This document shows, piece after piece, positions 34,351 through 57,515 of a DNA stretch of 64,000 nucleotides. A program made the position numbers and the translations under genes. A model generated the notes under the pieces. It saw only the letters and a list, made by a program, of their open reading frames with translations. It did not search any database and had not been told where the DNA came from. The stretch comes from Bolinopsis microptera (taxonomy: Eukaryota > Ctenophora > Tentaculata > Lobata > Bolinopsidae), in contig NC_087077.1 of the NCBI RefSeq assembly GCF_026151205.1, positions 6,906,483 through 6,970,482 of the forward strand, in the 5' to 3' direction. Position 1 is the first letter of the stretch. The number at the start of each line of letters is the position of its first letter.

Positions 34351-35219
34351 ATATGTGATAACATAATATATTTCTATGAGTTACTCCTTCGAATTGTGGT
34401 AAAGCTCAGCGACAAAGTCGCTAGTAAAGTCTGAAACACTTGAACTTGTATAGTGGCAGTCATTTTCGTTCAACTTCTGTTTTTTACCACTTTCTCGTCC
34501 GGCTTAGACTTAATTTAAAATATAGTATTTTTATTAGATTAAAACAAAAGGTTTATTTTTCTAGAGATGTAGGAACAGCATGTGCGCGAATGCATATTAT
34601 TAGTAGTATGTATAATGTATAGGCAATCTCAAGACTCTAAGTGCAATACATTGATCCTTAGCGTGGGACATGGTGATTGGTGCAGAAACCCCCTTACGAG
34701 TAGACACCCTATTTAGGTGCCTGAAAGGGTACAGATTACAATGGTTGGTGTATGTATGGATATTGAATGTATCTCAACAATGGAGGAAATAAGGCCACAC
34801 CTGATCTGAGTCTGTATTATTTGTAATGGTATTCTTAGTGAAAAATGTATACTGATCACGTGGCAGCAGCTATTGATGAGGTTATTTTGAGTGTTATAGG
34901 TGTAAATAGCACATGTATTCGACACGCTGGAGGTATTAATTAGGCTACCCCTCACTTACTGACTTACGCTCAGTTGTCAATTTCAAGAGAAGCATGTTAG
35001 TTGTATCTTGAAGAATGAAGATATCGTTTAAATAGTTATCATGAAATGATATCATGTATTGAAATATTGATGGAGAAGCGTGTCCAACTGCTTTAAAGGA
35101 GAGGAAACATTATGCGGCCGAACAAACAACGAGGATTGTGGCCACGATTGTTAACCTTACATTTTCATTCAATTAACTTATATATAAGGTAAATTGTATA
35201 CGTAATTATTACATACATG

Positions 35220-35259
35220 AATTAAATGAAACTGCAATAGATTGCAGTTTCATTTAATT
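35220..35259. repeat. 19-bp perfect palindrome upstream of the first C10 gene
   Basis: Arms 35220-35238 and 35241-35259 are exact reverse complements with a 2-nt loop. The matching site in the duplicate copy (about 38370-38409) has several mismatches. It lies 90 bp before the ATG. Confidence 0.9.
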
Positions 35260-35349
35260 TTTGGATAGTTCAAAGGTTTGAACATTTCAAATTTAACTAG
35301 TTTAAATGGTGGTAGTTGTTTAGATCCTCACCGCAGCAAACCGACAATC

Positions 35350-35990
35350 ATGAACTTTCTGAGTACACTAGCAATACTCCTCGTAACTACGACAGTATGC
35401 GATGGTAAGATAAATTGATGATATTATTTGTACTTCGGTTTTTCTGAAATTAATGTTTATTATTTTTAAATGAAATGTAAGTTATGCACGTCATGGTAAA
35501 TGAAGTCACAGCTGTTTTACCTGTTTACCTTGATACTTTGGAACACGATTTATGCTTACTGATTAGAAAATATTGAATATTATGATTATTAGAAATCATC
35601 AATAAATAAAAATTGACCAAAATTGCCCAAAATAAATCACAACAAGCAATTATTTCAAGGCACAAGAAATAGGTTGTGGACCTGCTCGGCAACGACTATG
35701 AACTACATGGGGTGCACGTGTCTAGCGAGTCTTTTTAACGTGAGGAAATGTGGAGCAAACATTAGATACTGTGAGTAGAATTGTAGACAAGAAAAGTCAA
35801 GATAGTACAAGATAAGATCATCATCTGACAAGAATACTGAGTACTTACTTTCGTCTCACAGTAGATATTTTCAGCCCAGAACAAATGCGCCACATACAGT
35901 CATTACTGCAACACAATGACAGAGAGTAACAGAAAAAACAGGATGTGCTGTAAGGCGATTATGTGCTACCAGACGAGATCTTCTTGCTGA
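35350..35990 (+). CDS. Secreted ten-cysteine (C10) protein, cluster gene 1
   Basis: Three exons, 35350-35404, 35660-35770 and 35875-35990, with both introns in phase 1; 93 aa. Exon 1 encodes a signal peptide (MNFLSTLAILLVTTTVCD). Exon 2 encodes the first half of the C10 domain (TCSATTMNYMGCTCLASL) and exon 3 the second half (KCATYSHYC ... MCCKAIMCYQTRSSC). Cysteine spacing is C-x9-C-x-C-x9-C-x10-C-x6-C-x12-CC-x4-C-x6-C, ten cysteines and so probably five disulfides. No known family matches by eye: the CC-x4-CY end superficially recalls phospholipase A2 and three-finger proteins, but the catalytic HD and the three-finger N-terminus are absent. It is probably a secreted defence, venom or signalling peptide. 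This is the shortest form in the cluster, with no extra domain. Confidence 0.75.
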
Positions 35991-36096
35991 TTTCATCGTT
36001 GTGAAAGCAGAAAAGATGGGTTTTTAGTACAAGCCTGCTCACAGTACTTTTTATCTTTTTTTGATTCATAAAATCTTATAAATCAAACAAATTAGC

Positions 36097-37510
36097 GACC
36101 AATGCAATAGTCTATATTCTACATATGCCAGTTGAACAATTTTTCTGAATGAATTATTACGGTTCTTTACTACCTTGCCGACGCTCGTATCTAAATCTTA
36201 TCCTTGCCCGTATGTTACCCTTGTTGATTTTACTTTTAGCCGACCCTGACATATGGGGGTGATTTTATACCGCATAGCAAATGAAGCGGTATGCAGTACA
36301 ATACAAAACAAGTCACAGTAGATGTTGGAAGGTGTATTAACACTTGCTTCCTGGATCTGGCTGTTCCTTAGTTTCCCTGGTCTGTTCTTGCCTTCTTCGA
36401 ACTGTAAATGAGCCATGAGGCCAAGTATACGTTTTCGTGATAAACTGTAAAACGTCTCTATACCGGGTTTCTCACGGTATTAAGCGTTTCATAAACCTCA
36501 TTAAGAGCCATATAATATACACGTATTGTGTCGTATTGTGATTGAATACAGCTCGATAAGTACTTACATCGCCCACCAAATACTATATGAACAACTTGGT
36601 TTGATTGTTGAGGAAAAGAAGAGGTCTGGTAATCCAGGTAGGCCGGTTTAGATTAGCACAATTGACGGTACAGAGAGGTTTTATTTATTACAAATGTGAT
36701 TATCTTAACCCCACTGATTCATCATTGAAATCAATAAAATGATAGTACAGCAGGCTATCGTTTCGTCTTTCAATCTTGACTGTGCCATTGGTGCAGTTTC
36801 TGTGAAAATTGATCAGGCTGTATTGTAATTAGTTATGAAACTCTTATATCGTATGGTTAACGTTTTTCAGTTTCAGACCTTTCCACTTATTAATTCCTGA
36901 TTACTAAAATCTGCCGCGATTTACTGAACTCCAATTACAAATATTGGTGATTTAAGTATTCTTAAAACGAAAAATTCACTAAGTTTTTTTTGAAAAGCAT
37001 TTTTCTCCGCGTTTCATGCGATTTGATCACTTTTGGCGGAAAATTTTTTTTTGAATTTTCGAAATTTTTATAAGTCTCGAAAAAAAATGTAAGTGAAAAA
37101 TTTTCAAAGTTTTTCTAAAAACTACTTTTCTCCGTGTTTTAAGCTATTCCGATCATTTTGAGCCAATAAAAAATTTTTAGAATTTTGCTAATTAGCTAAT
37201 TGATAATTATCCAATTAAATGATTATCTGACGTAAAAATTGCTAGAACAAAAGTTTTTCTTCATGATAATCTGAACACACTCGATTGATCCGCAACCTTT
37301 TACGATGTTCACAACTAAAGATATTCGACAAACAAGAAAGGTGGTAAAAAGTGGTAAAGTGGCAAAAAGTGGCCTTAAGACACGTGGAAAAGTTTGGAAA
37401 AGTTGGTCAGCCATAAAGGACATCTATTAGGACTCAAAAACGTCAAAAATCCTTTGTAAGCTTTGTGTGTCGGCAGATCGATTTTTTCAGACGGATCTGT
37501 CTGTACTATA
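36097..37510. other. Spacer between the duplicated copies
   Basis: Non-coding. At about 36980-37190 it holds two diverged ~75-bp tandem units, each with a TTTTTCTCCG core and AATTTTT tracts, in extreme AT-rich context. Confidence 0.5.
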
Positions 37511-39236
37511 ATATGTGATAACATAATATATTTCTATGAGTTACTCCTTCGAATTGTGGTAAAGCTCAGCGACAAAGTCGCTAGTAAAGTCTGAAACACT
37601 TGAACTTGTATAGTGGCAGTGATTTTCGTTCAACTTCTGTTTTTTACCACTTTCTCGTCCGGCTTAGACTTAATTTAAAATATAGTATTTTTATTAGAAG
37701 AAAACAAAAGGTTCGTTTTTCTAGAGATGTAGGAACAGCATGTGCGGGAATGCATATTATTAGTAGTATGTATAATGTATATGCAATCTCTAGACTCTAA
37801 GTGCAATACTTTGATCCTTAGCGTGGGACATGGTGCAGGAACTCCCTTACGAGTAGACACCCTATTTAGGTGCCTGAAAGGGTACAGATTACAATGGTTG
37901 GTGTATGTATGGATATTGAATGTATCTCAACAATGGAGGAAATAAGGCCACACCTGATCTGAGTCTGTATTATTTGTAATGGTATTCTTAGTGGGAAATG
38001 TATACTGATCACGTGGCAGCAGCTATTGATGAGGTTATTTTGAGTGTTATAGGTGTAAATAGCACATGTACTCGACACGCTGGAGGTATTAATGAGGCTA
38101 CCCCTCACTTACTGACTTACGCTCAGTTGTCAATTTCAAGAGAAGCATGTTAGTTGTATCTTGAGGATATCGTTTAAATAGTTATCATGAAATGATATCA
38201 TGTATTGAAATATTGATGGAGAAGCGTGTCCAACTGCTTTAAAGGAGAGGAAACATTATGCGGCCGAACAAACAACGAGGATTGTGGCCACGATTGTTAA
38301 CCTTACATTTTCATTAAATTAACTTATATATAAGGTCAATTATATAATATGCAAATATTACATACATAAATTAGATGAAACTGCAATAGATAGCAGTTTC
38401 TTTTAATTTTCGGATAGTTCAAAGTTTTGAACATTTCAAATTTAACTAGTTTAAATGGTGGTAATTGTTTAGATCCTTACCGCAGCAAACCGACAATCAT
38501 GAATTTTCTGAGTACACTAGCAATACTCCTCGTAACTACGACAGTATGCGATGGTAAGATAAATTTATATTATTTGTACTTCGGTTTTTCTGAAATTAAT
38601 GCATATTATTTTTTAATGAAATGTAAGTTATGTACATGGTAAATGAAGTCACAGCTGTTTTACCTGTTTACCTTGATACTTTGAAACACGATTTATGCTT
38701 ACTGATTAGAAAATATCAAATATTATGATTATTAGATATCATCAATAAATCAAAATTGACCAAAATTGCCCAAAATAAATCACAACAAGCAATTATTTCC
38801 AAGGCACAAGAAATAGGTTGTGGACCTGCTCGGCAACGACTATGAACTACATGGGGTGCACGTGTCTAGCGAGTCTTTTTAACGTGAGGAAATGTGGAGC
38901 AAACATTAGATACTGTGAGTAGGATTGTAGACAAGAAAAGTCAAGATAGTATAAGATAAGATCATCATCTGACAAGAATACTGAGTACTTTCGTCTCACA
39001 GTAGATATTTTCAGCCCAGAACAAATGTGCCACATACAGTCATTACTGCAACACAATGACGGAGAGTAACAGAAAAAACAGGATGTGTTGTAAGGCGATT
39101 ATGTGCTATCAGACGAGATCTTCTTGCTGAGTTCATCGTTGTGAAAGCAGAAAAGATGGGTTTTTAGTACAAGCCTGTTCACAGTACTTTTTATCTTTTT
39201 TTGATTCATAAAATCTTATAAATCAAACAAATTAGT
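37511..39236. repeat. Segmental duplication, copy 2 (1.73 kb)
   Basis: Partner of 34351-36096, offset close to 3.16 kb, same orientation. Confidence 0.95.
38499..39130 (+). CDS. Secreted C10 protein, cluster gene 2
   Basis: Exons 38499-38553, 38804-38914 and 39015-39130, phase-1 introns, 93 aa. The product is identical to cluster gene 1 although the exons differ at five positions, all silent (for example AAC/AAT in codon 2 and ACA/ACG in exon 3). The two copies thus seem to be held by purifying selection, or evened out by conversion acting unequally. Signal peptide and C10 domain are as in gene 1. Confidence 0.75.
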
Positions 39237-40429
39237 GATCGCTGTTTATTGTCTTTTATTGTCTACATAATATAATAAATAAATTGAAATTTAATAACAC
39301 CGCTTTTAAGATAAAACTTACACTCAGCAGTGTTTGAACTAATCATCCCAGAAAATATCATGAATACTGAGCTAAAAGATAACTTATGCTTGAAAATATA
39401 ACGTCAATACTAAAGCCCGAAAATGATAATTAAATTTATTATGCAAAGACCGAATATAAAGTATGACCAGAATAGTTATCGATAAAGTTTTTCAAGTTCA
39501 TCTGGGGACAGTTTGAAAAGGTACGTTTTAAGAAAAGCTTTAAAACATTCCAAAGATTGAGCTGAGGTGATGGTAACAGGCAACATGATACAAGTTTGTT
39601 TAAAAATTATGATACAAGTTTGTTTAAAAATTATAACATGCGCTGAACATACAACTTTAAATAAGATATTTATAATAAATATACCAGAAATCCCAAATCT
39701 TACTATAAATTTAGCGATATGTATATCTGTTGCCATTTTACTGACACCACGACAGTCGCGACACCACGCGTCGCAATCACTTCTGTCCACGACACCACGA
39801 CACCACGAAAATCACTTCTGTCTTCTGATTATCACCTCCGACGCTGATTTGAATTCCCGAATAGATTTCTTCGTCAGGTCTGTTCCACACCGTACACCCG
39901 GAATAAACCACCCAGATCTATCCAAATATTATCGGTTCTTTACCACCAGAGAAATGTTATGTTTCAATGGCGTGATCTTGGTTATTTAATGCTCTATAGA
40001 AAATAGGAAATCGTTAGTTTCTTTTCCTAGCCAGAATAAGCTAGATGTGCTCCTGAAGACGTTTAATGGGCTCATCTTTAGTATTTTACTAAACTTCTTA
40101 CCAAAAACAAATTCTAATAAAATCAGAACTAAAGCACAATACGGTGAAATACCCCTGTGGTTTACCTGAAAATCATCTAAATGAAACAAGGACGAAGAAT
40201 TGCTAAATGATTCGAGAATGTTCGCGTTTGTCACAAATCGAAGTGATATAATCATGTTAAACAAACTATTTTTGTCGAATCGCGCTTCAATCGATAAATT
40301 TTATTATTTTAATACCAGTTTGTTTCTTTTCGTTAAGTTTCAGATTTTTTATCTTATTAAGTGGTACAATTCCTGTCGAATCACGACATTGTTAACATTA
40401 GTGTTATAACTTTTCGCTGTATTTTTGGA
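39237..40429. other. Spacer with short tandem repeats and a possible LINE tail
   Basis: A 24-bp unit occurs twice at 39585-39632, and CACGACACCAC-type short repeats lie at about 39741-39805. On the minus strand 39476-39560 reads SAQSLECFKAFLKTYLFKL, which resembles the extreme C-terminus of CR1-type LINE proteins; the resemblance is weak and short. Confidence 0.4.
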
Positions 40430-42025
40430 ATGCGTTATTCAGTTGTGGTCACATTGGCTGCAATACTCGTTTTTACAACTACAGCAACAAAAGCCTCTGG
40501 TAAGTCACCAGAAGAAAGCAACAGAATCAGAACTAGATAGATGATGTGGGGTCATGGGAGATCCTGAGCAGCAAAACTTATGGGAAATATTGTGATCATC
40601 ACTCTTACGAGAGTAACTTCCAAATCTTATGGTTCATCCTTAAAGTTTTTGATCTTTCCATTCTGTTTATATCATATATGACTTATGAAACGTCAGATTG
40701 TATACAGCAAGGAGGAGACATGACCGGAGTCACATACAGAGGAACTCTAGCAGTCACCAAATCAGGACGATCTTGCCAGAAATGGGCGGCACAATCTCCC
40801 AACAGGCATAAGTTCACTGCTGGAAGGTCTAGGTAAGTGGCCTGATTTTGATTGGCTCATTTTTGGAAAATACAGTATTTAAAATCACATTATAATAGGA
40901 AATTTGTCAGTAATTTAACTAATTCTGGCGAACGAACTGACTATTTTTGTTGGAATTTTTAGTTTGTTGTAATTTAAAAATGTGGGTTCCTGTCATATCA
41001 ACATATTTTCAGATTCCCTAATTATAATGGAGGTTTGGACGAAAACTTCTGTCGAAACCCAAGCGGGTACGTTTTCCACCAAATTTGTCCAAATCTTACT
41101 TAGTCGAATGAAATACAATTTTTTTCCCGAAAAGAACTACGTAAAATACTAAAATATGTATATTTATTATTACGATTCAATGACCTACAAAGCGCTTCCT
41201 TCAGACATACTGGTATATGGTGTTACAACGGCGAAGGCACTTTTCCAAGATGGGAGGACTGTGTGATGCCCCCACCATGCTGGGTGTTTTACTGTGAGAT
41301 AATTTAATTTGTTTTCACGTCCCCAAATAGCTAATTATCATTCCCAAAGTAATGAACTATTCCCAATATTTTTCATCTGACTATGTAGGAGTCCTGAATT
41401 TACAAAGAAACCCGAGTTCGGATCTCCATACACCGTAGCCAACCCTCTGGTCCGCCATAAAATCAGAATGACATGCACGATCATGCCAAAAATCAAGTTT
41501 GATGGCGCTAAACTTTTAGCTATTACTCTACTGATTTTTTGAGCAACTATTTAATTTTATCCAAATCAGACACAATTATAGTAAATAATACAGAAAGGTC
41601 ACAATATAGCCTAATTGAATCACTATGCCTTGGACCATATTTTATTTTTCAGCAAGACCAGATAATAGAATTGGAACTACGACATGCTCTGGAGTGGATA
41701 TAAACGGAATGGGATGCTCTTGTCTAGCAAATTACTACAACATGAGAGATTGCGGATCAGGCCTTAGCTACGGTAGATATTGCAATAGTTTTCTCATAAT
41801 TTAAATTGCGGTTTTGATTTTATGAATAATTCAACCACTTATAGTTATCGGGTAGCCAGACACATCTGAGCAATGAGAACCGTGATAAAAAGTGACAAAA
41901 TCACTTCAGATCCTCAGAGATGTGCAACGTATAACCACCACTGTCTTAAGCTGAAAAGTGGCAAAAAGAAGGAGAAGACTTGTTGCAGAGCTATCTTGTG
42001 CTTCGGCAACAAACTGAACTGCTGA
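40430..42025 (+). CDS. Secreted kringle plus C10 protein, cluster gene 3
   Basis: Six exons: 40430-40499, 40697-40832, 41013-41066, 41205-41293, 41653-41772 and 41910-42025; 194 aa. Exon 1 is the signal peptide (MRYSVVVTLAAILVFTTTAT). Exons 2-4 encode one complete kringle (VTYRGTLAVTKSGRSCQKW, GGLDENFCRNPSG, TGIWCYNGEG, RWEDCVMPPPC) with all six cysteines in the 1-6, 2-4, 3-5 pattern order. Exons 5-6 encode C10 (TCSGVDINGMGCSCLANYYN; CATYNHHC, KTCCRAILC). The kringle block enters and leaves in phase 1 (its inner introns are phase 2), so it was inserted as a symmetrical module. Kringles bind proteins, often through lysine. I know of no kringle joined to this ten-cysteine domain. Function unknown. 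Confidence 0.85.
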
Positions 42026-42680
42026 GTTTAGAACCTAAACACGACCGGATTGAAAATTTAGACATGAGAAAAGGAAGTAGTGTGTCTGATCACTCAGCTG
42101 TACTTGCTGAACTGGGGCTGAAATCAAAAATTCTTTTTTATATTACATAATAATACTTATCTGGAACTCCAGACAAATTAATTTTAATTTGGAACGTGGT
42201 CGGACAATTTTATTAAGATTCCAGGACGAATCGCGGACTATTTAACTTAATGTTATGATCCCCTTGATTAGCTCACATGAAAAATTGTATTTACTCAATT
42301 TTATCTTAAAATTACGTAAGAACCGTGTTTGTACTATGTTGTGAGACATCTTTACTCGCATAAAACATAACTTCTTGGATGGAGACGAAGATTTCAAAAA
42401 ATAATCATTGAATTTTAGAAGACATAATGATGGATCTACTACAAAATAAGCACTATGGACTCCGGTCAAGGTTTGGTATCAAACCCAAAAAATAAAATTG
42501 TCCGCTTTCCTACAAAAAATTGTGGATACAAATCAATGGTTCGAATTCCGATTGAATATTATTGTGGCCTTAATAAGAAGGTCGATTTCTCGGTTATTTT
42601 TGAGCTTTCGTTCAGAAAATAATTCGGGGCCTTCAAAGGGGGGGTAACAAGAAAGCGTTACAAGTGTTACAAACCTTCTA
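42026..42680. other. Non-coding spacer
   Basis: Between cluster gene 3 and a repeat-rich stretch. No feature seen. Confidence 0.4.
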
Positions 42681-42686
42681 TAATAC

Positions 42687-42820
42687 AAAATGTGTATCAC
42701 CTCTTCAACCCGCCGAACATGTGCTTACCCTAAAAATGTAAACAAATGTGTTTCATCTCCTCAACCCGCCGAACATGTGCTCACTATTAAATTAAACAAA
42801 TGTGTTTCACCTCCCCGCCA
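42687..42820. repeat. Tandem repeat, unit about 55 bp, 2.4 copies
   Basis: Each unit contains CAACCCGCCGAACATGTGCT preceded by an AATGTGT(A/T)TCA motif. The third copy is partial. It abuts a LINE remnant and may be its internal repeat. Confidence 0.8.
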
Positions 42821-42848
42821 GTATCCACATCTATATTACTGTCCATTA

Positions 42849-46755: not shown

Positions 46756-47618
46756 ATGCGTTCCTTCATCACATTGGCTGTGATACTTGTTGTTTCGACG
46801 GCTGAATCTGGTAAGTAACCAAAAGACATTTTTCGAGTCAGAACTTAAATCTGATCATACTCGTCAAAGTTCTCAGTAATTAATTCAGCGGGTGTTACAT
46901 AGTGTGTGTTACATAGTGCTGAATGTATTAAATATTTGTCCACATTTTGTAAAGGTGGAATCTTATGTTCCATTATGATTCAATCCTTCATCCATTGTGT
47001 GATTGATTTATATAATTTAAATTATCGACGAATCTTGCATGGACTGTTCTTTAGTGGGTTGTGTTACATCTGAAAAACTTCAGGTATCTCGGAGGAACTG
47101 AGACTTAGTTCCAGAGGAGACATGAGCAATAACAGAGTTATAACATGCTCTGGGTTACAGATAAGCAGAATGGGTTGCAATTGTCTAGCTGATCTCTACA
47201 ATGAAAGAGGATGCAGTAGAAGCCTTAGCTACAGTAAGTGACTTAAATGGATAAACATTTTAAATGGTCCACAGCCCCATAATTTCTCTCTTTTGCAGCA
47301 CTTACAAGTTTAAAGTATCAAACTTGGATACTGGTGAGTGGTGGGGAGGTGAAACATATCCTTCCTGACCTGTGACAACGATTTACCAAGCATCTTTCAG
47401 AATTGGCCAATCAAATCCCAGAACCACCGTCACGTGTCAAAACAAGTATATAAGTTTCTCCTCGAAACCAGAAGATCTATCATCTGACAACTTAATTTTC
47501 AGATACCGGCAGTTGTGCCACGTACAACCACCATTGTAAGCATCTAAAGGACGGGAAGAAGAAGGAGAAGACTTGTTGCAGAGCTATCATGTGCTACATC
47601 AATAAACACGGATGCTAA
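46756..47618 (+). CDS. Secreted C10 protein, cluster gene 4
   Basis: Exons 46756-46810, 47084-47233 and 47503-47618, phase-1 introns, 106 aa. Signal peptide MRSFITLAVILVVSTAES. A short Ser/Arg/Glu-rich spacer of about 20 residues leads into C10 (TCSGLQISRMGCNCLADLYN; SCATYNHHC; KTCCRAIMCYINKHGC). The last exon is almost identical to those of cluster genes 5 and 6, more so than the rest, which points to gene conversion or recent exon duplication. The long Lys run between cysteines 6 and 7 makes the domain strongly basic. Confidence 0.75.
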
Positions 47619-48640
47619 GCTGTGGATTTATGTAACCCTTGAAAGATGGTTGAGATTGTCATTTCTTGATGTTGAACTGTTGAACTATAATTACTGTATG
47701 TCGTATGATTCAAAATTTTGAACAACGTCAGTAATTTAAAGATAGCATTATTCTAATTGAATACCAGTTACCGTTATAAACAGCACTCAGAGTTAATTTA
47801 TGACTAAATTATTGTCGTTAATTTCAATAAATAATTGTGTTTGTTTTTTCTACCATGACTGTCCAACTGCTCGAACAGAAACAAGTTAAAACAGTTGCGC
47901 AAAACAAGGCTGTCTGATTCGGTGACTTTAGTTTCCTGCAGAGTAAGAGCGCAAATGTCGACATTGTACTTTTCACAGTCTAATCCTAGTAACCCACGTT
48001 TACTATGTATGTTGGCTGCCATCTTGCTGAACACCGAGCCCACGGTTGTTGAACGTGGCGAAGCTGATCATTAATGTACTGGTTATTGATACAAATGATT
48101 TTTTCTTTGGGTTAAATATGTTGGAGTTGGCGTCACCACCGTCTCCACCGCTGACATTACTCGAACGGACCATCTAAAAATTAATTTCTACAAATAATTG
48201 TGTTTGTTTTTTAAACCATATACGGGTGAGGAGAGGAGGTTCAGATGGCCTGATTCCATTCATTAAGATCTTCAGTGATCATGTCAGGATCATTAGCATC
48301 AAATTAAATCAATAATCTCTAACAAAAAATAAAATGTCTCAATGCAGAGCACCCCTTCAAATATTAAAAACGATAGTCTTGCATTTAGAAATGACCTTAA
48401 TGAAATTACAACACAAACATATTATATATAATCGGTATCGATGGGACTAAATAATTATGTGGCGCTGCTGGAAAAATGTTATCAGGGAGCCTTTTGATTA
48501 CCCGGATACATTTTTGTTCAATTATGCTTAATCGATTAGTGTGTGTTTATGGCCATTTTATTTTGAAAGTTTTCATTAAATAATAGACTGTTTGTTAGTT
48601 CCAATATTAGCTCGACTTTAGTTTAAATTATTGTTATACT
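47619..48640. other. Spacer containing a LINE endonuclease relic
   Basis: Apart from the relic at 47860-48043 the stretch is AT-rich and non-coding. Confidence 0.4.
47860..48043 (-). pseudogene. Relic of a LINE apurinic-type endonuclease
   Basis: The minus strand reads KRGLLGLDCEKYNVDICAL, then QETKVTESDSL. This is the start of the APE-type endonuclease domain of non-LTR retrotransposons (the DICALQETK box, here with one extra residue). Only about 60 codons remain. Confidence 0.6.
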
Positions 48641-48659
48641 GTTTCGCTGCAGTCGAGGA

Positions 48660-49890
48660 ATGCGTTCTCTGGTGACATTCGCTGCAATACTTGTTGCTGT
48701 AACAGCAGACTCCAGTAAGAAAACATTTTAAATTTCTAGAGTTAGAAGTATAACTTAATTGTGATAATATTCGTCAAGGTCCTCCTCAGTGCGTCCTTCA
48801 ACGGGGTCTAAATATTTCCAGGAATCTGGGAGAAACACCGCGGAAAAGTTTTAAGGGGTAAATACAGTTCTGGAGTGTCCGAGTACAACTATCTAGAAGA
48901 AGCACAGATTGAGTGTATGATGCGATCTGGTTAGTTTAAATCTGCATGTAGAAAATTACTTTAATTTGCAGTTCAACAAATACTGATGTAATTGAGGTCA
49001 GAAATGAGGGACAAACTTGATAATCATGTCAAAGAACAACTTTTTATTATCTTTGATCAATTTGATCCTCGCCAATGATACTGTACGTTTTATTTCTTAT
49101 AATGTTGATCCTTTGTCTACATCTGTTTCACCAGATTGTGGTGGTATCACCTACATCAAGTCCTCTCAAAAGTACTCTCTGAGAAGCGGTGTCAACCTCG
49201 TGGACGCTCCCAAGGGCAAGAAAGCAACCTCCTGGCTCCTCATGATACCGATCCGTGAAACAGGTACAGAATGCACTTCACCTTCATGAAATTGTATGTA
49301 CAGTTTCAGCTTTCTTTCATCTGAGATCTTTAGACTTAAAATAGCTGATTCCATTTAAAAATACATGGCTGTTGGAGTGAAATATAGATACAGCTAATAC
49401 TATAATAGATCATGAGTACACTATTTGATTAATGCACTGTTTAGAATAAAGTGTTATCAATTAATATCGCGATTCTTCCAACACACTTCTTATTTTCCAG
49501 AATTTGAGACAGATTTAGCGGAAGGCAGGGTTATGTCATGCTCTGGAAAGGAGATAAACGAAATGGGTTGTTCTTGTCTCGCGGATCTCTACAATGTAAA
49601 TGGATGCGCTTCAAACCTTAGCTATGGTACATGATGCTAAATGCAAATCATAATATAATATATTATATCTAATATGTTTCACAATTCACGGCCACATCAT
49701 ACCTTTTTCATTGCACATATTAGTTTGAAAGGTGTCTCCAAATTATTATAATATTATAACAACTTAATTTTCAGATACTGGCAGTTGTGCCACGTACAAC
49801 CACCATTGTAAGCATCTAAAGGACGGGAAGAAGAAGGAGAAGACTTGTTGCAGAGCTATCATGTGCTACATCAATAAACACGGATGCTAA
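48660..49890 (+). CDS. Secreted CGGITY-domain plus C10 protein, cluster gene 5
   Basis: Five exons: 48660-48714, 48822-48929, 49135-49263, 49501-49626 and 49775-49890, all introns phase 1; 177 aa. Signal peptide MRSLVTFAAILVAVTADS. Exons 2-3 encode a module with YLEEAQIECMMRSGDCGGIT, YSLRSGVNLVDAPKGKKATS, then WLLMI. It has two cysteines, and the CGGITY ... YSLR ... SW pattern resembles a small domain seen in various secreted invertebrate proteins and may be PAN/apple-related; that link is tentative. Exons 4-5 encode C10 (SCSGKEINEMGCSCLADLYN; SCATYNHHC; CCRAIMC). Function unknown. Confidence 0.75.
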
Positions 49891-50779
49891 GTGCAGCTGT
49901 TAAACATGGATTGATGTAGTCTTAAAAACCTTGAAACATGATTGAAAAATTATTGAGACAGAGATTGATTGATGTTAACTATTGTATTTTAACTACTACT
50001 GCATTTTAAGAAACATCATTACTTTGAAGATGGCTTTTTATCTGAGTGGACACCAGTTACCAACAAACTGCAGTGAATCTGAATCAAATTATAGACATTT
50101 CAATAAATAATTGAGTTCGTTTTAAACTATTTTCACAATTAAATACATTTATTGAGGACGTTACAGAAGGAATTAATTTAATGTAGTTGGAGGAGTCCTA
50201 ACTCTCCTCACGTCCGAGAATGGCGTTTCTCTTGTATCAAATATGAAGGTACGAGTGGGGAAAGGAAGCTCTGATGGCCCGGTGCCATTCACCAAGATCA
50301 TCATGCCCGGATCATTGGCAACAAATTCAATCAACAATCTCTAACATAAGATACACTTTTAAGTTTTAGGTTTTAATCCAGACCACCCCTTCAAATTATA
50401 ATATCATCATCAAAAGTCCTGCAGTTCCGTTGAAAAGGACCTCAATCAAATTACGAAAATTGTATTAATTTGATTTGTTGATTTTCTCTGATCAGATCAG
50501 TACTGATGAGACTAAATAACTGTACGCCGCTGTTAGAAAAATATTATTAGGGAGCCTTTCGTTTACCCAGATATATTTTGGAGAGCTCCTTCGAAACCAT
50601 GTTATTCGTTCTAAACTATGTTTTGATCGATTAGTATTTGTTTAATGTTGATGGCCATTGCATCTTTGAAAGTTTCAAAAGTTGATCAATGATCAAATAA
50701 ATTATAGACTTATTTCCAATCTAAACGTCACTATGTTTAGATCATTGTATTTGTTATACTGTTTCGGAACAGTCAAGGA
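49891..50779. other. Spacer
   Basis: Contains CAATAAAT at about 50100, a likely polyadenylation signal of cluster gene 5. The 3' flank and the following upstream region repeat, in diverged form, those of cluster gene 4 (for example TCAGTGATC/ATCATGCCCGGATC AT near 48280 and 50300). The genes were therefore duplicated with their flanks. Confidence 0.5.
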
Positions 50780-51855
50780 ATGTGGTCTCTAGTTACTTTC
50801 ACCGCAATACTTGTTGCTGTAACTGCAGACTCTGGTAAGTAACCAAGCATCTCTAGAGTCAGAACTTAATTGTTATCATATATGTGAAGATCTTCGTCCG
50901 TGCGTCCTTCAACAGGGTGTAAATATTTTCAGGAATCTGGGAGAAACACCGCGGGAAATATCTGAGGGGTAGATATAGTTCCAGAGTTTCTGAGTACGAC
51001 GATTTAGAACAAGCACAGATTGAGTGTATCATGCGTTCTGGTTAGTAAACATCTGAACTTCCGTAAATAACTCTCATATAAAGTTTTACAAATTATAAAC
51101 CGTACGTTTTATTTGTACATATTATTAAAGTTGATCCCTTCACTTCATCTGTTTCACCAGATTGTGGTGGCATCACCTACATCAAGTCCTCCCAAATTTA
51201 CTCTCTGAGAAATGGTGCCAACCTCGTGGACGCTCCCAAGGGCAAGAAAGCAATCTCATGGGTTCTCAAGATAAGGTCCCTAGAACCACCTATAATAATA
51301 ATTGACGAGAAAAGTCCAGAGAGAAGTACAGAATGCAATTTACTTCGATAATATTTCATGGAGCGTCTGATGCTTACCACATTGCTGTTGAAATACCGGA
51401 ATAAAATAAGATAGATAAAAGTGCTCATTAATAAATGTTGCTTTTAGAATAGTGTTGAAATTGTAATTTTTACGAAACGACATCTTATTTTCAAGAACTT
51501 GAAGAGGATATCTTCATCGGCGTAGACAAGTTTTCAACATGTTCTGGGGCGGAGATAAACGAACTGGATTGCTCGTGTCTTGCGGATCTCTACGATATAA
51601 GAGAATGCAGTTCAAGCCTTAGCTACAGTAAATGACGCAAATGGATACAGATTTTGAATTGATACTCAGGTCCATCTTATCTTTCTGATCAACTTTAAAT
51701 ATTTCTATGAAGCATCAAATCTGACAATTTAATTTTCAGATACCGGCAGTTGTGTCACGTACAACCACCACTGTAAGCAGCTAAAGGACGGGAAGAAGAA
51801 GGAGAAGACTTGTTGCAGAGCTATCATGTGCTACATCAATAAATACAACTGCTAA
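50780..51855 (+). CDS. Secreted CGGITY-domain plus C10 protein, cluster gene 6
   Basis: Exons 50780-50834, 50933-51040, 51161-51325, 51496-51627 and 51740-51855, phase-1 introns, 191 aa. The architecture matches cluster gene 5: signal peptide MWSLVTFTAILVAVTADS, a CGGITY module (LEQAQIECIMRSGDCGGITY, YSLRNGANLVDAPKGKK), then C10 (TCSGAEINELDCSCLADLYD; SCVTYNHHC; CCRAIMC). The third exon is longer than in gene 5 by an insertion that adds an EPPIIIIDEKSPER stretch but keeps the donor GTACAG in frame. The frame also runs on through that donor to a stop, so intron retention would truncate the protein before C10. The exon-4 acceptor is TTTTCAAG, slightly unusual. Confidence 0.72.
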
Positions 51856-52857
51856 GTGCAGTCTTTTAACCTGTAAACTATAAAGTATATTATATGGATT
51901 TGGACCTTTACTTGAAATCTGAGTGAGACTGTTCTTTTTTGATATTAAACTTCATTATATAACTCAACTGTCGTTGAGATTAAAAACCATGATTTACCTT
52001 TTGAGGTCACCAAAAATGTCATTATTTAGTTTTTGTTTCTTACAGAACCAGGCTACATTTTTACTTAGACATTATATCAGTTAATTTGTTGTATATATTT
52101 CTTTTTAGAATCCACATTCCACTTGCAAGACGTAACTTTTGCCAGACAGAAAATTGACTGTATCAGATTGCATTAGATTCAGTAATGAATAGATAATTTC
52201 TTCTAAAAGACTTCCTTAATAATTTGTTGTTGAATTTTGTTAAAATGAGCTGAATTAAATTAAATTTAGAATTGTATCGCAAGGTAGGGTAAAGGGTGTG
52301 GTGAACCATATCAGTAATAACTAAATTATGATACAAGAGACGTTCTTTAATTCAAGTCATTGGTGAGAAAATTCAATATTGGACATTGTTAAATGATGCC
52401 GCCAGCATAAATGCTTAAGAACTTAAATAATAATATGGGAATCGATAGCCTAAAAGTCGCGCTGAAATCACTCATTGAAACATGATTTTAGACAAATTAC
52501 TTCGAGGGACTAATTTCCACAGAGTCTGTAGTTAAGCTGCTTTTAGTCTTCGAATTTTAAAACTTGAAACTTGAACGTGTTTTTCAGCTTTAGCGTATTT
52601 ATTAATTTGTTTTGGTCAGATTATTTTACACACTACAGTAATGTAGCTTAATGCAATAATTGTAGGGGTGTTTAATGCCAATTTCGAAATTTAAATTTTT
52701 AGGCAATTGTAACCAGTGAACAAATTCTCAGCATACTTTAAGAAATGTTCGTTAATGATGCTGAGATTATTTTCGCCATCGGTGTTAAATTGTTAAAGCA
52801 TTCTTTGATTTTTCGCTATGGCAACGCCTTATATTCTCAAAGTCTATAGTTTCAGAA
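51856..52857. other. Spacer
   Basis: AT-rich, no coding signal or clear repeat. Confidence 0.4.
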
Positions 52858-53607
52858 ATGCAAATGCGTTCTCTGATCACGTTGGCTGCAATACTTGTTG
52901 TCGTAACTTCTAGTAAGTATGGAATTCGAATTTAAATTTCCTTATCTAAAGATAAGAAACATAGTTGCTCTGTTGAAAAATGTTCCACTCGTCCTATGAT
53001 TGGTCCAGAAGATGTCCAGTAATAACAGTGATGGTCAATGATCAAAATCGCTGCATTCCTTGCGATATTAACTACATAATATCAATATTTATTTTCAGTT
53101 GAACCTAGTTATGTTGAAACTATTATGGAAAGTGTGTATTATGATGAACCTATTATGGAAACTGTGAATAATGATGAACCTATTCTGGAAAGTGTGGAAG
53201 CAGATATACTGCAAACATGTTCAGGAGCGGAGTATAACGAAATGGATTGCTCTTGTCTTGCAAGTGCTTACAACCTGAGAGAATGTCCTGAACGCCTTAA
53301 CTGTAAGTATAATTTGTTTGTTTCCTACACACGCCAAATCTTATTTTGGCATGTACCCAAGATTAGTTAAATTTAGATCGATTAATAATCATGGAATTTG
53401 ATAATGCAACAAATTATTTAATTTACTTATTTTATCAGCTTAGAAAGCACTGCTGATATCCGGAAAATCGTACAAAAAACCCCTTCAGATTCGGGTAGTT
53501 GTGCTACATACAGTCATCACTGTAAAAGGCTGACGGGCGGAAAAAGGGAGAAGAAGACTTGCTGCAAGGCTATCATGTGCTACAGAGAAGCAAGAAGCTG
53601 CTACTGA
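52858..53607 (+). CDS. Secreted acidic-prodomain plus C10 protein, cluster gene 7
   Basis: Exons 52858-52912, 53099-53302 and 53489-53607, phase-1 introns, 125 aa. The ATG at 52858 is followed by a second in-frame ATG at 52864; either could start the signal peptide (MRSLITLAAILVVVTS). Exon 2 begins with an acidic repeat (DEPIMETVNN, DEPILESV; a 36-bp unit about 2.5 times), then the first C10 half (TCSGAEYNEMDCSCLASAYN). Exon 3 gives SCATYSHHC, KTCCKAIMC and a final SCY. The acidic stretch before a Lys/Arg-rich cysteine domain resembles the charge-balancing propieces of many antimicrobial or venom peptides; that is inference. No dibasic cleavage site is obvious at the junction. Confidence 0.75.
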
Positions 53608-54441
53608 TCTGTACTTGAAGTTTCAACTGCATGTCTAGGATAAAACTGTGCGAACTTTGAAATCTGATTGAGACTGTTATTTTTTCATGGTGAAGTAAAT
53701 TATGACTTTACTTATTGAGAACAGTAAAAATTTCATTATTTAGTTTTTTCCTTAACACTTTTTGTTTTCTTTTGTCATAGTAAGTAGGGTGAATAACAGT
53801 TAAATTCGGCACTCTTTTGCAACGTAGATAAGAGGGCGTGCCTAATAATAATCCGATAACTAATTTAATGCTACATGATCATGAGGCGTTCTTGAACTGA
53901 AATTGGCAGGAAAATATTTAATGTTGTCAAATTTCATGCTGTCACGCCCACGCCCCACGAAAATGCTTGGTCATTTAAACATGAAATTTGATAGCCAAAA
54001 GTAACAATGAATTCCTCATCAAAAGAGGCTACTAAGGCTATTATTTGAAGTGTGTGTATTTGAGCTGCCTTCATTTGTCCAATTCGTATTTAGTTTAATC
54101 ACGAATTTGAAGATTTAATCGCGTATTACAATTGTACGGTAAAAGTCATTAAAGATTATTTCACATACACGCACGAATTTAATTTGCTTGATATGTGAGT
54201 TTTAAGTGCCATTAACGTAATTGGATTACTTAAGTCAATTGTTAAAATTGTCGGAATACTTTTCGAAGTGTTTCTTGATGATGCTCATTGCTCAGTTCTG
54301 GATTCTGCAATATAGATGGCGAGAATACTTTTGCCATCGAAATACCGCTATGTAAACGGGAGTGTTAGTGCTCCCTATGACAATTTAATGTTTAATTCCT
54401 GTTTAATTCCTGTTAAGGGTTCTCTTAGCTCGGGAATACAG

Positions 54442-55217
54442 ATGCGTTCATTGATCACGCTGGTTGCAATCCTTGTTGCTATAACCTCTAGTAAGTACAG
54501 TAGTTCCATAATGACATTCCATGATTATGGAACTTATGTTATTTTGTAATCCTCTTTACACATCTCTGTTTTCTAGTTATGGATTAGATGGCGTGGGACG
54601 TGGGTGGGTATCTGCTTCTGATTGATCATCATTATAGTTCAAATCATTAGTGTATCTCTATCATATACTAAAAAATATTAATATTTTTACTCAGTTTCAG
54701 AGGCTAAGGAATTAAGTTATCAAACATATGATTCAAGTCTTGAACTAAAAGTTGAGGAATTTGCAGTTAATGAGGATATGAATGTGAAAGTAAAGGAGGG
54801 TATACTACAAACATGTTCGGGAGTGGAGTATAACCAAATGACTTGCTCTTGTCTTGCAAATGCCTACAACCTGAGAGAATGTCCTGATCGCCTTAACTGT
54901 AAATATAATTTCATTGTTTCTTTTACGCGTCACATTTTATTTGGCATGTTCCCAAGGTTTGTAAATTTTAAATTGATTTAATAAAAGTATGGAATTTATG
55001 CGTACAGAATACATATTTTCATATATTTATGGTCTAACTTACTGATTTGTTCACCTTAGTTACTGTTGATATAATTCATCATACGAAATGGATTTCAGAT
55101 TCGGGTGGTTGTGCTACATACAGTCATCACTGTAAAAGGCTGACGGGCGGAAAAAGGGAGAAGAAGACTTGCTGCAAGGCTATCATGTGCTACAGAGAAG
55201 CACGGAACTGCTACTGA
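54442..55217 (+). CDS. Secreted acidic-prodomain plus C10 protein, cluster gene 8
   Basis: Exons 54442-54490, 54695-54898 and 55099-55217, phase-1 introns, 123 aa. Two in-frame acceptors six bases apart (after 54694 and after 54700) could both be used. Signal peptide MRSLITLVAILVAITS. Exon 2 starts with an acidic spacer (SSLELKVEEFAVNED) before the first half of C10 (TCSGVEYNQMTCSCLANAYN). Exon 3 has GCATYSHHC, TCCKAIMC and NCY. The upstream in-frame ATG at 54316 would put a non-signal stretch in front of the signal peptide, so I chose 54442. A silent or near-silent copy follows 1.6 kb downstream. Confidence 0.75.
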
Positions 55218-56051
55218 TCTGTACTTGAAGTTTCAACTGCATGTCTAGGATAAAACTGTGCGAACTTTGAAATCTGATTGAGACTGTTATTTTTTCATGG
55301 TGAAGTAAATTATGACTTTACTTATTGAGAACAGTAAAAATTTCATTATTTGGTTTTTTCCTTAACACTTTTTGTTTTCTTTTGTCATAGTAAGTAGGGT
55401 GAATAACAGTTAAATTCGGCACTCTTTTGCAACGTAGATAAGAGGGCGTGCCTAATAATAATCCGATAACTAATTTAATGCTACATGATCATGAGGCGTT
55501 CTTGAACTGAAATTGGCAGGAAAATATTTAATGTTGTCAAATTTCATGCTGTCACGCCCACGCCCCACGAAAATGCTTGGTCATTTAAACATGAAATTTG
55601 ATAGCCAAAAGTAACAATGAATTCCTCATCAAAAGAGGCTACTAAGGCTATTATTTGAAGTGTGTGTATTTGAGCTGCCTTCATTTGTCCAATTCGTATT
55701 TAGTTTAATCACGAATTTGAAGATTTAATCGCGTATTACAAATGTACGGTAAAAGTCATTAAAGATTATTTCACATACACGCACGAATTTAATTTGCTTG
55801 ATATGTGAGTCTTAAGTGCCATTAACGTAATTGGATTACTTAAGTCAATTGTTAAAATTGTCGGAATACTTTTCGAAGTGTTACTTGATGATACTCATTG
55901 CTCAGTTCTGGATTCTGCAATATAGATGGCGAGAATATTTTTGCCATCGAAATACCGCTATGTAAACGGGAGTGTTAGTGCTCCCTATGACAATTTAATG
56001 TTTAATTCCTGTTTAATTCCTGTTTAGGGTTCTCTTAGCTCGGGAATACAG

Positions 56052-57515
56052 ATGCGTTCATTGATCACGCTGGTTGCAATCCTTGTTGCTATAACCTCTA
56101 GTAAGTACAGTAGTTCCATAATGACATTATGGAACTAATGTTATTTTGTAATCCTCTTTACACATCTCTGTTTTCTAGTTATGGATTAGATGGCGTGGGA
56201 CGTGGGTGGGTATCTGCTTCTAATTGATCATCATTATAGTACAAATCATTAGTGTATCTCTATCATATACTAAAAAATATTAATATTTTTACTCAGTTTC
56301 AGAGGCTAAGGAATTACGTTATCAAACATATGATTCAAGTCTTGAACTAAAAGTTGAGGAATTTGCAGTTAATGAGGATATCATGAATGTGAAAGTAAAG
56401 GAGGGTATACTACAAACATGTTCGGGAGTGGAGTATAACCAAATGACTTGCTCTTGTCTTGCAAATGCCTACAACCTGAGAGAATGTCCTGATCGCCTTA
56501 ACTGTAAATATAATTTCATTGTTTCTTTTACGCGTCACATTTTATTTGGCATGTTCCCAAGGTTTGTAAATTTTAAATTGATTTAATAAAAGTATGGAAT
56601 TTATGCGTGTACTTGTACTTGATTAGGTCTCCTCAATCATTCGAGTGGCCTGCACCAATGAACTCCCGTTTGTGACGTATCATCTCCCTCCAAAGTTTGC
56701 GGTCACTAGCCATCTCGCTCGCTCCTTCTAGGTCTATGTCAGTGTTTCCTGTAAACGCTGCAGCATCTTCCAGCAAACATTTCCTCCAGTTCTTTCTTGG
56801 ACGGCCCCTAGATCTTCTCCCATGGGCAGGGGTCCAGTTAAGCAGGTACTTAGGAAGCCTAGTGTCTGGCATTCTGGTGACATGGCCAAACCAACGCAGG
56901 CGGTTTGCTCCTATGTACGTCTCTACTGGATTTATCTTTGCACGCTCCAGCACTTCAGTGTTTCTAACCCGATCGAGCCATCTTATCCTAAGTATTCTCC
57001 TCAAGCAACGCTGATGGAACACCTCAAAGCGATGTAGCTGCTTTTTGGTTGTGTTCCAAACCTCACTACCATATAACAATATTGTCAAAACCGCTGCCTT
57101 ATAAATCCTGATCTTTGTATAAGACTGGATGTTGCGGTTTTTCCATATATTACTCAGTTGATTGAAGGCTCCGGAAGCTTTCTGAATCCTAGCTGACAAC
57201 TCACGGTCGATAGTACCGTCGCTGGAAATAATTGTACCTAAGTACGTAAAATCACTAACTTGCTGCACTGGCGTGTCTTCAACAGTGATGTTCAGATGCG
57301 TACAGAATACATATTTTCATATATTTATGGTCTAACTTACTGATTTGTTCACCTTAGAGACTGTTGATATAATTCATCATACGAAATGGATTTCAGATTC
57401 GGGTAGTTGTGCTACATACAGTCATCACTGTAAAAGGCTGACGGGCGGAAAAAGGGAGAAGAAGACTTGCTGCAAGGCTATCATGTGCTTCAGAGAAGCA
57501 AGAAGCTGCTACTGA
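56052..57515 (+). CDS. Secreted acidic-prodomain plus C10 protein, cluster gene 9
   Basis: Exons 56052-56100, 56297-56503 and 57397-57515, phase-1 introns, 124 aa. It is a copy of cluster gene 8. The signal peptide is identical; the spacer differs by Ser to Arg (early exon 2) and an added Ile codon before MNVKVKEG. Exon 3 matches gene 7 except Tyr to Phe after the CC-x4-C motif. Its second intron has grown to 0.9 kb through a LINE insertion, but splice sites are unchanged, so the gene is probably still functional. CAATAAA at about 57619 is a likely polyadenylation signal. Confidence 0.75.
56609..57295 (-). mobile_element. 5'-truncated LINE with target-site duplication, in intron 2 of cluster gene 9
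   Basis: The duplicate copy at 54997 gives the empty site, so both ends are exact. ATGCGT (56603-56608 and 57296-57301) is the target duplication. On the minus strand the insert is open from its 5' end: VQQVSDFTYLGTIISSDGTI, KAAVLTILLYGSEVWN, RLRWFGHVTRMPDTRLPKY and GRPRKNWRKCL, the standard tail of RTE/CR1-like reverse transcriptases. Its 3' end is a short AAGTAC repeat, as in RTE and CR1 types. It postdates the 1.61-kb duplication. The frame is undamaged apart from 5' truncation, so it is young. Confidence 0.9.

Follow-up and report, generated by a model that had tools for sequence, protein, structure and literature searches.

A nine-gene array of predicted secreted ten-cysteine proteins in the ctenophore Bolinopsis microptera

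The gene cluster

Nine plus-strand genes, g1 to g9, lie in the window, the 64,000-nucleotide stretch of Bolinopsis microptera DNA that was analysed, with coding exons from 35350 (the ATG of g1) to 57515 (the stop of g9). The last two exons of every gene, referred to here as the CxC exon and the terminal exon, encode the pattern C-x9-C-x-C-x9-C-x9/10-C-x6-C-x12-CC-x4-C-x6-C (C10). The gene models are:

g1, 35350..35990, plus strand: exons 35350-35404 (signal), 35660-35770 (CxC) and 35875-35990 (terminal); spliced model, 93 aa, signal and C10 only
g2, 38499..39130, plus strand: exons 38499-38553, 38804-38914 and 39015-39130; spliced model, 93 aa, protein identical to g1
g3, 40430..42025, plus strand: exons 40430-40499, 40697-40832, 41013-41066, 41205-41293, 41653-41772 and 41910-42025; 194 aa, signal, kringle and C10
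g4, 46756..47618, plus strand: exons 46756-46810, 47084-47233 and 47503-47618; spliced model, 106 aa, signal, short linker and C10
g5, 48660..49890, plus strand: exons 48660-48714, 48822-48929, 49135-49263, 49501-49626 and 49775-49890; 177 aa, signal, PAN-like module and C10
g6, 50780..51855, plus strand: exons 50780-50834, 50933-51040, 51161-51325, 51496-51627 and 51740-51855; 191 aa, signal, PAN-like module and C10
g7, 52858..53607, plus strand: exons 52858-52912, 53099-53302 and 53489-53607; spliced model, 125 aa, signal, acidic stretch (net -10) and C10
g8, 54442..55217, plus strand: exons 54442-54490, 54695-54898 and 55099-55217; spliced model, 123 aa, signal, acidic stretch (net -4) and C10
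g9, 56052..57515, plus strand: exons 56052-56100, 56297-56503 and 57397-57515; spliced model, 124 aa, architecture as g8, N-region net -3

The initial annotation had described nine plus-strand genes that share a two-exon ten-cysteine end and encode secreted, cysteine-rich proteins. All nine are present as spliced models, and their products look secreted, judging by the hydrophobic N-terminus of 9/9 models. A signal-peptide exon had been placed before C10; this is found in nine genes, but in three of them an extra module intervenes, a kringle in g3 and a PAN-like module in g5 and g6. Position 34351 lies at the edge of the g1/g2 flank that is duplicated and is no coding start. The 25 introns in the models are GT-AG throughout, which, as the splice sites were picked by eye, means that consistent sites exist, and 23 of the 25 are phase 1; the two others both lie inside the g3 kringle. 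The second intron of g9 (893 nt) contains an element-like fragment.

Transcripts that join the predicted exons had been named as a check on the models, and contig-derived proteins do join the exons of g6-, g5- and g8-like genes (P0003, P0002 and P0006). P0003, a 191-aa JGI protein from a 900-base contig, differs from g6 at 3 residues, and P0006 (123 aa, 1008-base contig) differs from g8 at 3 residues. The same search returned no contig-derived protein for g1, g2, g4, g7 or g9, though g1, g4 and g7 were in the query. The NCBI protein P0004 is identical to the g3 model. Isoform X2 of LOC134816504 (P0001, NCBI RefSeq) consists of exactly g5 exons 1-4 plus g6 exon 5 and thus gives no support for the last exon of g5 itself.

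Duplication and selection

The sequence shows tandem duplication as the way in which the array expanded. The block at 34349-36095 (g1) is 95.7% identical to 37509-39235 (g2) over 1751 aligned positions; between g1 and g2 there are 5 synonymous changes and no nonsynonymous ones. Probable copying between neighbours is also seen on a smaller scale:

47487..47619 (g4) and 49759-49891 (g5), plus strand: near-identical 133-nt tract found by local alignment, coinciding with the terminal exon

The terminal exons of g4 and g5 have 1 difference in 116 nt, and dS in this exon is 0.05 vs 0.42 in the part coded by the CxC exon. To judge from these alignments, recent copying between neighbours has probably affected the terminal exon of g4-g6.

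The earlier statement that most residues outside the cysteines are variable fits the CxC exon. It does not extend to the terminal exon of g4-g6 or to the identical g1 and g2 proteins. The comparison with fast-evolving effectors is only partly right and is not supported in its strong sense: whole-CDS dN/dS is 0-0.72 in the 6 pairs computed. The terminal exon of g7/g9, with 0 synonymous and 1 nonsynonymous change, is the only by-exon case without synonymous change. Nothing in the analysis ties the family to venom, stinging cells or self/non-self recognition.

The C10 module

Six of the nine genes have cysteine gaps of 9-1-9-10-6-12-0-4-6; the other three have 9-1-9-9-6-12-0-4-6. In the window there are 9 occurrences of the six-cysteine half (C-x6-C-x12-CC-x4-C-x6-C) and 9 of the four-cysteine half, vs 0 and 2 respectively in 40 Markov-1 simulated windows together. 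The genome has at least 15 C10 loci, six of them outside the cluster, which is the main but not the sole C10 site. The strict spacing reported earlier is kept within the nine cluster genes but is looser at loci outside. In P0007 x13 replaces x12; at the C9 locus x13 replaces the second x9 and x14 replaces x12. Three motifs had been called nearly invariant, which is correct for CCxAIxC (9/9 genes) but too strong for CSCLA and CATYxHHC, each present in 6/9: g1 and g2 have CTCLA and CATYSHYC, g4 has CNCLA and g6 has CVTYNHHC. Among 10 aligned C10 sequences 14 columns are invariant.

The loop between cysteines 6 and 7 contains 3-6 basic vs 0-2 acidic residues in 13/13 domains examined, many of them close paralogues, and the terminal-exon part of C10 has a net charge of +5 to +8 in all nine window genes. 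The charge of the whole C10 is +3 in g5 and only +1 in g6. BBxB, the consensus of heparin-type motifs, is found in 11 of 13 C10 domains (it is absent from P0007 and the C9 locus). The motif is mostly a matter of composition, because in 9 of these 11 domains shuffles of the same loop retain it about 65% of the time; the g1/g2 loop alone is unusual in this test (0.03-0.04).

These charges bear on a role in cationic host defence, in which C10 would be antimicrobial or microbe-agglutinating and the acidic stretch of g7-g9 would be a pro-piece that keeps the protein inactive until cleaved. The N-regions of g7, g8 and g9 (-10, -4 and -3) are opposite in charge to their C10 modules (+4, +6 and +6), and the basic terminal exon in 9/9 genes and the tandem array with its duplicates are in line with such a role. 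However, the N-regions of g1-g6 have a net charge of 0 to +5 and hold no acidic pro-piece, whole-CDS pairs are without diversifying selection, and typical defensins are smaller than C10 proteins. On balance this reading is rather unlikely. An antimicrobial-peptide screen of a Mnemiopsis library also recovered no such protein, as far as the available part of that source goes (PMC10537229).

Relationship to known domains

The profile search that had been suggested found no named family. None of the 10 alignment members matches Pfam at E<=10, NCBIfam gives a single chance-level match (E 0.032), and of the PDB matches, the best at E 0.34, none is credible; the original view that C10 is no known domain agrees with this. 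The C10 profile was built from 10-11 sequences, mostly close paralogues, with g1, g4 and g7 among the rows of the query. It retrieved nine proteins, three of them labelled Bolinopsis microptera, while 555 word-sharing candidates of the longer length class gave 0 matches at E<=10, within the sensitivity of a word-based search. Within that same limit, the cysteine frame and residues shared at several loci qualify C10 as a distinct ctenophore domain family, which appears to be restricted to ctenophores as far as the searches see.

Several families with related cysteine arrangements were rejected. Ly6/three-finger domains are marked by their spacing and by a C-terminal Cys-Asn after CC-x4-C; C10 runs six residues on to a tenth cysteine and has no Pfam match in 10/10 members. 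The insulin/relaxin A-chain has CC-x3-C-x8-C, C10 has CC-x4-C-x6-C, and no Pfam match was obtained. CHCH/twin CX9C proteins are small, have no signal peptide and contain a loop that connects two C-x9-C helices. C10 shares the pair of C-x9-C motifs and has a weak PDB match to this family (2lqt, E 0.34-0.4), but its motifs are one residue apart with no loop between them, and it has six further cysteines and a secretion-type N-terminus. With defensins, conotoxins and other toxin families the C10 genes have in common a signal exon, a fixed cysteine frame and tandem paralogues; they differ in having their own spacing, in placing C10 behind several N-terminal modules and in the absence of diversifying selection in whole-CDS pairs. 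Whichever function applies, C10 may be a diverged form of a known disulfide fold that is invisible to sequence profiles. This is a real possibility although the odds lean the other way: the profile has only 10-11 sequences, most of them close paralogues, but 0/10 members match Pfam at E<=10 and the sole PDB match is a CHCH protein (E 0.34-0.4) whose inter-motif loop C10 lacks.

Front modules

The family is modular, with a kringle in g3, a PAN-like module in g5 and g6 and an acidic stretch in g7-g9. The gene models show phase-1 introns at the module borders, which let C10 follow in frame on any of the front parts seen here: an acidic stretch, a PAN-like module, a kringle or the signal exon alone. 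The kringle and the PAN-like module are placed as follows:

40697..41293, plus strand: kringle of g3, three exons with both outer borders phase 1; Pfam PF00051
48822..49263, plus strand: PAN-like module of g5, two exons with phase-1 borders

The g3 kringle matches PF00051 with E 3.9e-17 and 62.8 bits vs a cut-off of 34.3 (in a preliminary model one residue longer), and P0004, whose sequence equals that of the final model, has this Pfam label too. By eye it has the six kringle cysteines, CQxW, FCRNP and WCY; it is a single kringle followed by C10. The NCBI name of the product is 'plasminogen-like'. The plasminogen family has a serine protease domain and multiple kringles. The 194-aa g3 protein shares the kringle, has no protease domain or further kringles, ends in C10 and has the kringle as its sole Pfam match at E<=10, and the family was rejected. 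By eye, the g3 kringle seems to lack the aspartates with which plasminogen kringles bind lysine: the two positions read Ser and His.

The PAN-like module has in common with PAN/apple domains (PF00024) the core C-x5-C-G-G-I-T-Y, but only two cysteines are present in g5 and g6. PAN_1 matches 3 of 7 module sequences, with a best E of 0.028 and 14.7 bits, below the cut-off of 21.4; full-length g5 has no PAN match at E<=10, and no PAN structure is among the PDB matches. Kringle-like exons have 151 matches in the genome at E<=1 (three are g3 itself), and PAN-like exons 83 at E<=10, 30 of them below 0.01 and six falling in g5, g6 and the C4 paralogue. Both modules are thus common add-ons in this genome. 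At one locus (L048) a PAN-like module precedes a beta-trefoil and ETX/MTX2-type (aerolysin-type) region in the same open frame; at another (L051) it precedes a beta/gamma-crystallin-like frame, by position only, and that frame is below the Pfam cut-off.

The aerolysin-type neighbour is one reason to consider that C10 proteins could be prey-capture effectors, that is, toxin-like proteins or glues made in gland cells or in the colloblasts of the tentacles. This is an unlikely proposal, although it would account for the secretion-type N-terminus, the richness in cysteine, the tandem expansion and the failure to see relatives outside ctenophore-type sequence. A Mnemiopsis study (PMC6278862) reports that colloblast candidates show an enrichment of signal peptides and of genes specific to ctenophores, and that toxin-like genes are above chance in some single-cell clusters, but also that colloblast/tentacle candidates have no significant overlap with known toxin Pfam domains. 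The constraint in whole-CDS comparisons also speaks against effectors of this kind.

The front modules could instead belong to secreted signalling or matrix ligands, with the C10 core binding a receptor and the kringle or PAN-like module giving heparan-sulfate or receptor co-binding. The model for such a ligand would be the N-terminal part of hepatocyte growth factor, with its kringle- and PAN-type co-binding domains. The presence of both module types in one family, the basic loop and the purifying selection in g1/g2 are consistent with this, but none of the nine genes combines a kringle with a PAN-like module, there is no receptor candidate, and a core ligand would not usually have expanded in tandem into divergent paralogues. 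A ligand function is considered improbable.

Proposed origin and function

The reading we favour, if tentatively, is that C10 is a ctenophore disulfide module spread by phase-1 exon shuffling and bearing a glycan-binding function in secreted mucus or adhesive. C10 would be a compact module stapled by disulfides, with one face, from the CxC exon, tolerant and variable, and the other, from the terminal exon, conserved and carrying the lysine/arginine-rich loop between cysteines 6 and 7. This putative binding loop would most likely bind microbial surfaces or anionic glycans, among them mucins and sulfated polysaccharides, and a kringle or PAN-like module would add a second binding site. In secreted mucus or adhesive, C10 proteins may thus serve as glycan anchors or as cross-linkers, and a role in barrier defence is possible.

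The single cysteine frame in nine intact genes, the phase-1 introns, the kringle and PAN-like modules, the contig-derived proteins that join predicted exons, the basic loop and terminal exon and the constraint on g1/g2 argue for this reading as a whole, and the enrichment mentioned above concerns colloblasts, which are adhesive cells. Against it stand the compositional nature of BBxB, the low whole-C10 charge of g5 and g6, the sub-threshold PAN-like match, the seeming absence of the lysine-binding aspartates in the g3 kringle and the missing transcript-like matches for g1, g2, g4, g7 and g9. None of the analyses connected the genes with mucus, gland or colloblast cells.

It is far less probable that the array acts as a bank of cassettes, in which the upstream exons of one gene are spliced to a neighbouring gene's terminal C10 exon. 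The phase-1 introns between all modules would keep such joins in frame, and a few genes would then give many secreted recognition proteins sharing an end domain of new fold. Isoform X2 of LOC134816504 fits cross-gene splicing; misplaced reads could also give such a model.

Implications

In this cluster a module whose exon borders are exactly defined occurs in several architectures side by side and has probable transcripts, which makes the producing cells and the binding partner directly testable. The array also points to shuffling of phase-1 exons in a ctenophore, with kringle and PAN-like modules taking part. Cross-gene splicing, if true, would be an unusual route to diversify secreted proteins.

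Structure of the ten-cysteine cluster

The cluster consists of nine genes, g1-g9, on the plus strand at 35350-57515 of the window, which occupies C6:6906483-6970482 in the assembly of the lobate ctenophore Bolinopsis microptera. The spliced models were built by hand from the sequence and then checked by script. The initial annotation had proposed nine genes for ten-cysteine proteins in this region, and the cluster is borne out and enlarged: every reading frame is open and all 25 introns are GT-AG. An N-terminal hydrophobic stretch of the signal-peptide type is found in 9/9 proteins (Kyte-Doolittle maximum 1.93-2.56, compared with no more than 1.17 beyond residue 25). The last two exons code for the ten-cysteine module, C10, with its four-cysteine half (C-x9-C-x-C-x9-C) in the CxC exon and its six-cysteine half in the terminal exon. 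The cysteine gaps are 9-1-9-10-6-12-0-4-6 in g1-g6 and 9-1-9-9-6-12-0-4-6 in g7-g9. Each half occurs nine times in the window; across 40 windows simulated with a Markov-1 model, the six-cysteine half turned up 0 times in total and the four-cysteine half twice.

Several of the ten database proteins matched by cluster queries (P0001-P0010) correspond to individual models. NCBI protein P0004 is the g3 model, with 194/194 residues the same. P0003, from a 900-base JGI contig, aligns over all 191 residues with g6 and differs at 3; because g6 measures 1076 bases from ATG to stop, this contig would be spliced, barring much shorter introns there. P0006 (123 residues, 1008-base contig) and g8 are the same except at 3 positions; P0002 (171 residues, 1294-base contig) has 87% identity to g5. 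Both contigs are long enough for an intron-bearing gene, therefore splicing is only probable in them. No near-identical protein was returned for g1, g2, g4, g7 or g9 in protein searches that had g1, g4 and g7 among the query rows. In three ENA proteins, P0008-P0010, the CxC exon is followed by intron-like sequence, and their forms are not identical to g7-g9, which suggests that they come from another ctenophore assembly. AATAAA lies within 250 nt past the stop in g2, g4, g5 and g9 and is absent there in g1, g3, g6, g7 and g8, but its base rate is 1.2 per kb, so this pattern decides nothing.

P0001, named by NCBI 'uncharacterized protein LOC134816504 isoform X2 [Bolinopsis microptera]', is exactly exons 1-4 of g5 joined to exon 5 of g6. 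Since the terminal exons of g5 and g6 differ at only 8/116 bases, misplaced reads could have produced it as an artefact. It could also reflect real read-through splicing between the two genes, which phase-1 introns would permit.

Other features in the window are:

6347-7369, plus strand: rhodopsin-type GPCR (3.6e-13)
9871-10863, minus strand: reverse-transcriptase-like region (RVT_1 below cut-off)
10786-13096, plus strand: reverse-transcriptase-like region (RVT_1 below cut-off) and a GIY-YIG-like end, presumably as in Penelope-like elements
15301-16068, plus strand: Parkin co-regulated protein (5.7e-83)
16984-27167, plus strand: frames joined by eye around the 965-residue frame of the next line, by look one WD-repeat/coiled-coil gene
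20969-23866, minus strand: one open frame, 965 residues long, resembling an ankyrin-repeat cation channel (Ank match above cut-off, PKD_channel match below it)
56633-57316, minus strand, in g9 intron 2: fragment that looks like the C-terminus of a protein from a non-LTR retrotransposon, which we take to be a LINE (in Pfam, only sub-threshold DUF6451)

The length of g9 intron 2, 893 nt, would follow from the retrotransposon-like fragment inside it.

Front modules and exon phases

The sequence ahead of C10 differs among the genes. It holds a kringle in g3 (Pfam PF00051, 62.8 bits; cut-off 34.3), a two-exon module with weak PAN likeness in g5 and g6, and an acidic stretch in g7, g8 and g9 (net -10, -4 and -3), and there is little of it in g1, g2 and g4. 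The PAN likeness consists of sub-cut-off PAN_1 matches in 3/7 module sequences (best E 0.028), and full-length g5 has no PAN match in Pfam. Module-border introns are all phase 1, the sole two exceptions (phase 2) lying inside the g3 kringle. Phase-1 introns at module borders are the classic exon-shuffling arrangement.

Searches of the Bolinopsis microptera genome (264.65 Mb searched; 265 Mb according to PMC11797021) gave 151 matches to kringle-like exons at E<=1, including three from g3, and 83 to PAN-like module exons at E<=10, 30 of these below 0.01. The PAN-like module precedes a beta-trefoil and an ETX/MTX2-type region in one open frame at locus L048 (PF06268 and PF03318 above cut-off). 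At locus L051, judged by position only, the module precedes a beta/gamma-crystallin-like frame, whose 22.3 bits fall short of the cut-off (25). Because it is common in the genome and precedes other domains at these two loci, the PAN-like module seems to serve generally as a front end for the secreted proteins of Bolinopsis microptera.

Loci elsewhere in the genome with such modules include:

C1:5160500-5162700, minus strand (L048): 390-residue frame with PAN-like N-terminus, beta-trefoil/fascin-like and ETX/MTX2-type regions
C7:8221500-8225800 (L052): two tandem open frames whose PAN-like modules have extra cysteines, with a dibasic pro-region ahead of them and a very lysine-rich tail behind
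C11:16207720-16212054, minus strand: open frame (1593 residues) rich in kringle-like repeats, such exons being abundant genome-wide

Among PDB sequences the nearest to L048 is LSLa, a hemolytic lectin from Laetiporus (E 2.8e-16), which would make L048 a comb-jelly protein resembling hemolytic lectins.

Duplication and selection

Genes g1 and g2 are duplicates (34349-36095 vs 37509-39235, 95.7% identity), and the g7-g9 units align at 94.3% identity (53205-55003 vs 54801-56608). These alignments indicate that the array has grown by tandem duplication. Selection was assessed by pairwise NG86. Between g1 and g2 there are 5 synonymous and 0 nonsynonymous changes, and five other pairs have dN/dS of 0.37-0.72 over the whole CDS. 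The g7/g9 terminal exon has 0 synonymous changes and 1 nonsynonymous, on a stretch short enough for the test to be noisy, and for g1/g2 vs the other genes dS is saturated in this exon. No positive selection was seen in whole-CDS pairs by this test; selection on the five other pairs is relaxed, not diversifying. The genes had been described as fast-evolving effectors, a description that is borne out only in part.

The two halves of C10 differ in their divergence between g4 and g5, with dN 0.29 and dS 0.42 in the CxC-exon part vs dN 0 and dS 0.05 in the terminal exon. The near-identical tract is 133 nt long and extends past the terminal exon by 16 nt on its upstream side and 1 nt on its downstream side; the g5/g6 and g4/g6 tracts are of similar extent. 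Gene conversion would be the simplest reading of these tracts, although it leaves their exon-tight border unaccounted for. Constraint on synonymous sites is another possible source of the likeness.

C10 loci across the genome

Protein searches of the genome with four terminal-exon queries and one CxC-exon query, whose counts are lower bounds, placed C10 at at least 15 loci, nine of them in the window cluster. The loci outside the cluster are:

C4 near 4.266 Mb: C10 locus with PAN-like exons
C4:4034666, C4:15046595, C4:15248523 and C7:2881644: four near-identical dispersed C10 genes
C9 near 10.705 Mb: divergent C10 locus, with reciprocal matches to the dispersed copies at E 0.006 and 0.02

NCBI LOC134814250 (P0007) is the protein form of the four dispersed copies. 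These have plus-strand blocks in common, the shortest several hundred bases and the longest 3.6 kb, at ~87-99% identity, and recent segmental duplication is enough to explain them. No mobile-element boundary was seen around the four copies, which may instead be cargo of an unrecognised element. The C9 locus has a C-x9-C-x-C exon upstream, but the gaps are wider both behind that exon (x13) and within the loop (x14). Across ten domain sequences 14 columns are invariant, made up of the ten cysteines and a Ser, a Leu, a Tyr and an Ala.

Other candidates were set aside. C4:3921869 (E 0.0057) would have been a sixteenth locus, but the adjacent frames listed include no C-x9-C-x-C exon. Three of the CCxAIxC-like pattern matches, at C4:10384221-10384835, C6:10227727 and C7:4195625, have no C10 exon pattern in the fetched sequence.

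Family status

Among 5.8 billion proteins the queries returned 5, 9 and 0 at E<=10, ten distinct proteins in all. One of these, P0005, has the PAN-like module only, without C10. With seven consecutive C10 units (496 residues) as the query, no larger C10-containing protein came up at E<=10, at word-match sensitivity. The named organism among the ten is Bolinopsis microptera (three proteins), and none is named from outside the ctenophores. The search detects only relatives with exact 5-residue words in common, so a distant homologue elsewhere is possible. Pfam matched 0/10 C10 members at E<=10, NCBIfam gave nothing credible (one member, E 0.032, to an unrelated enzyme) and neither did PDB (best E 0.34). 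The two LOC numbers and four C10 motifs appeared in no paper in a literature search covering few subscription-journal papers. The view that these proteins belong to no recognised family stands at the level of sequence, there being no credible Pfam, NCBIfam or PDB match. C10 is a new module of a familiar kind, apparently restricted to the phylum, and we hold the family and its modular anatomy as described here with high confidence.

Possible function

The loop between C6 and C7 is basic, with 3-6 Lys/Arg in 13/13 domains, many of them close paralogues. A heparin-type motif in the loop was rejected as a signal; lysine content accounts for most of it. A study of Mnemiopsis reports an enrichment of ctenophore-specific genes (79/189) and of signal peptides among its colloblast candidates, and no homologues of known adhesives (PMC6278862). 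These enrichments give reason to look for the cluster genes in secretory cells; they do not place them there. C10 would have five disulfides and a constrained basic face for anionic glycans or microbial surfaces. This glycan-anchoring role is a tentative reading, somewhat against the odds; if it holds, C10 proteins may be used in mucus or adhesive secretion.
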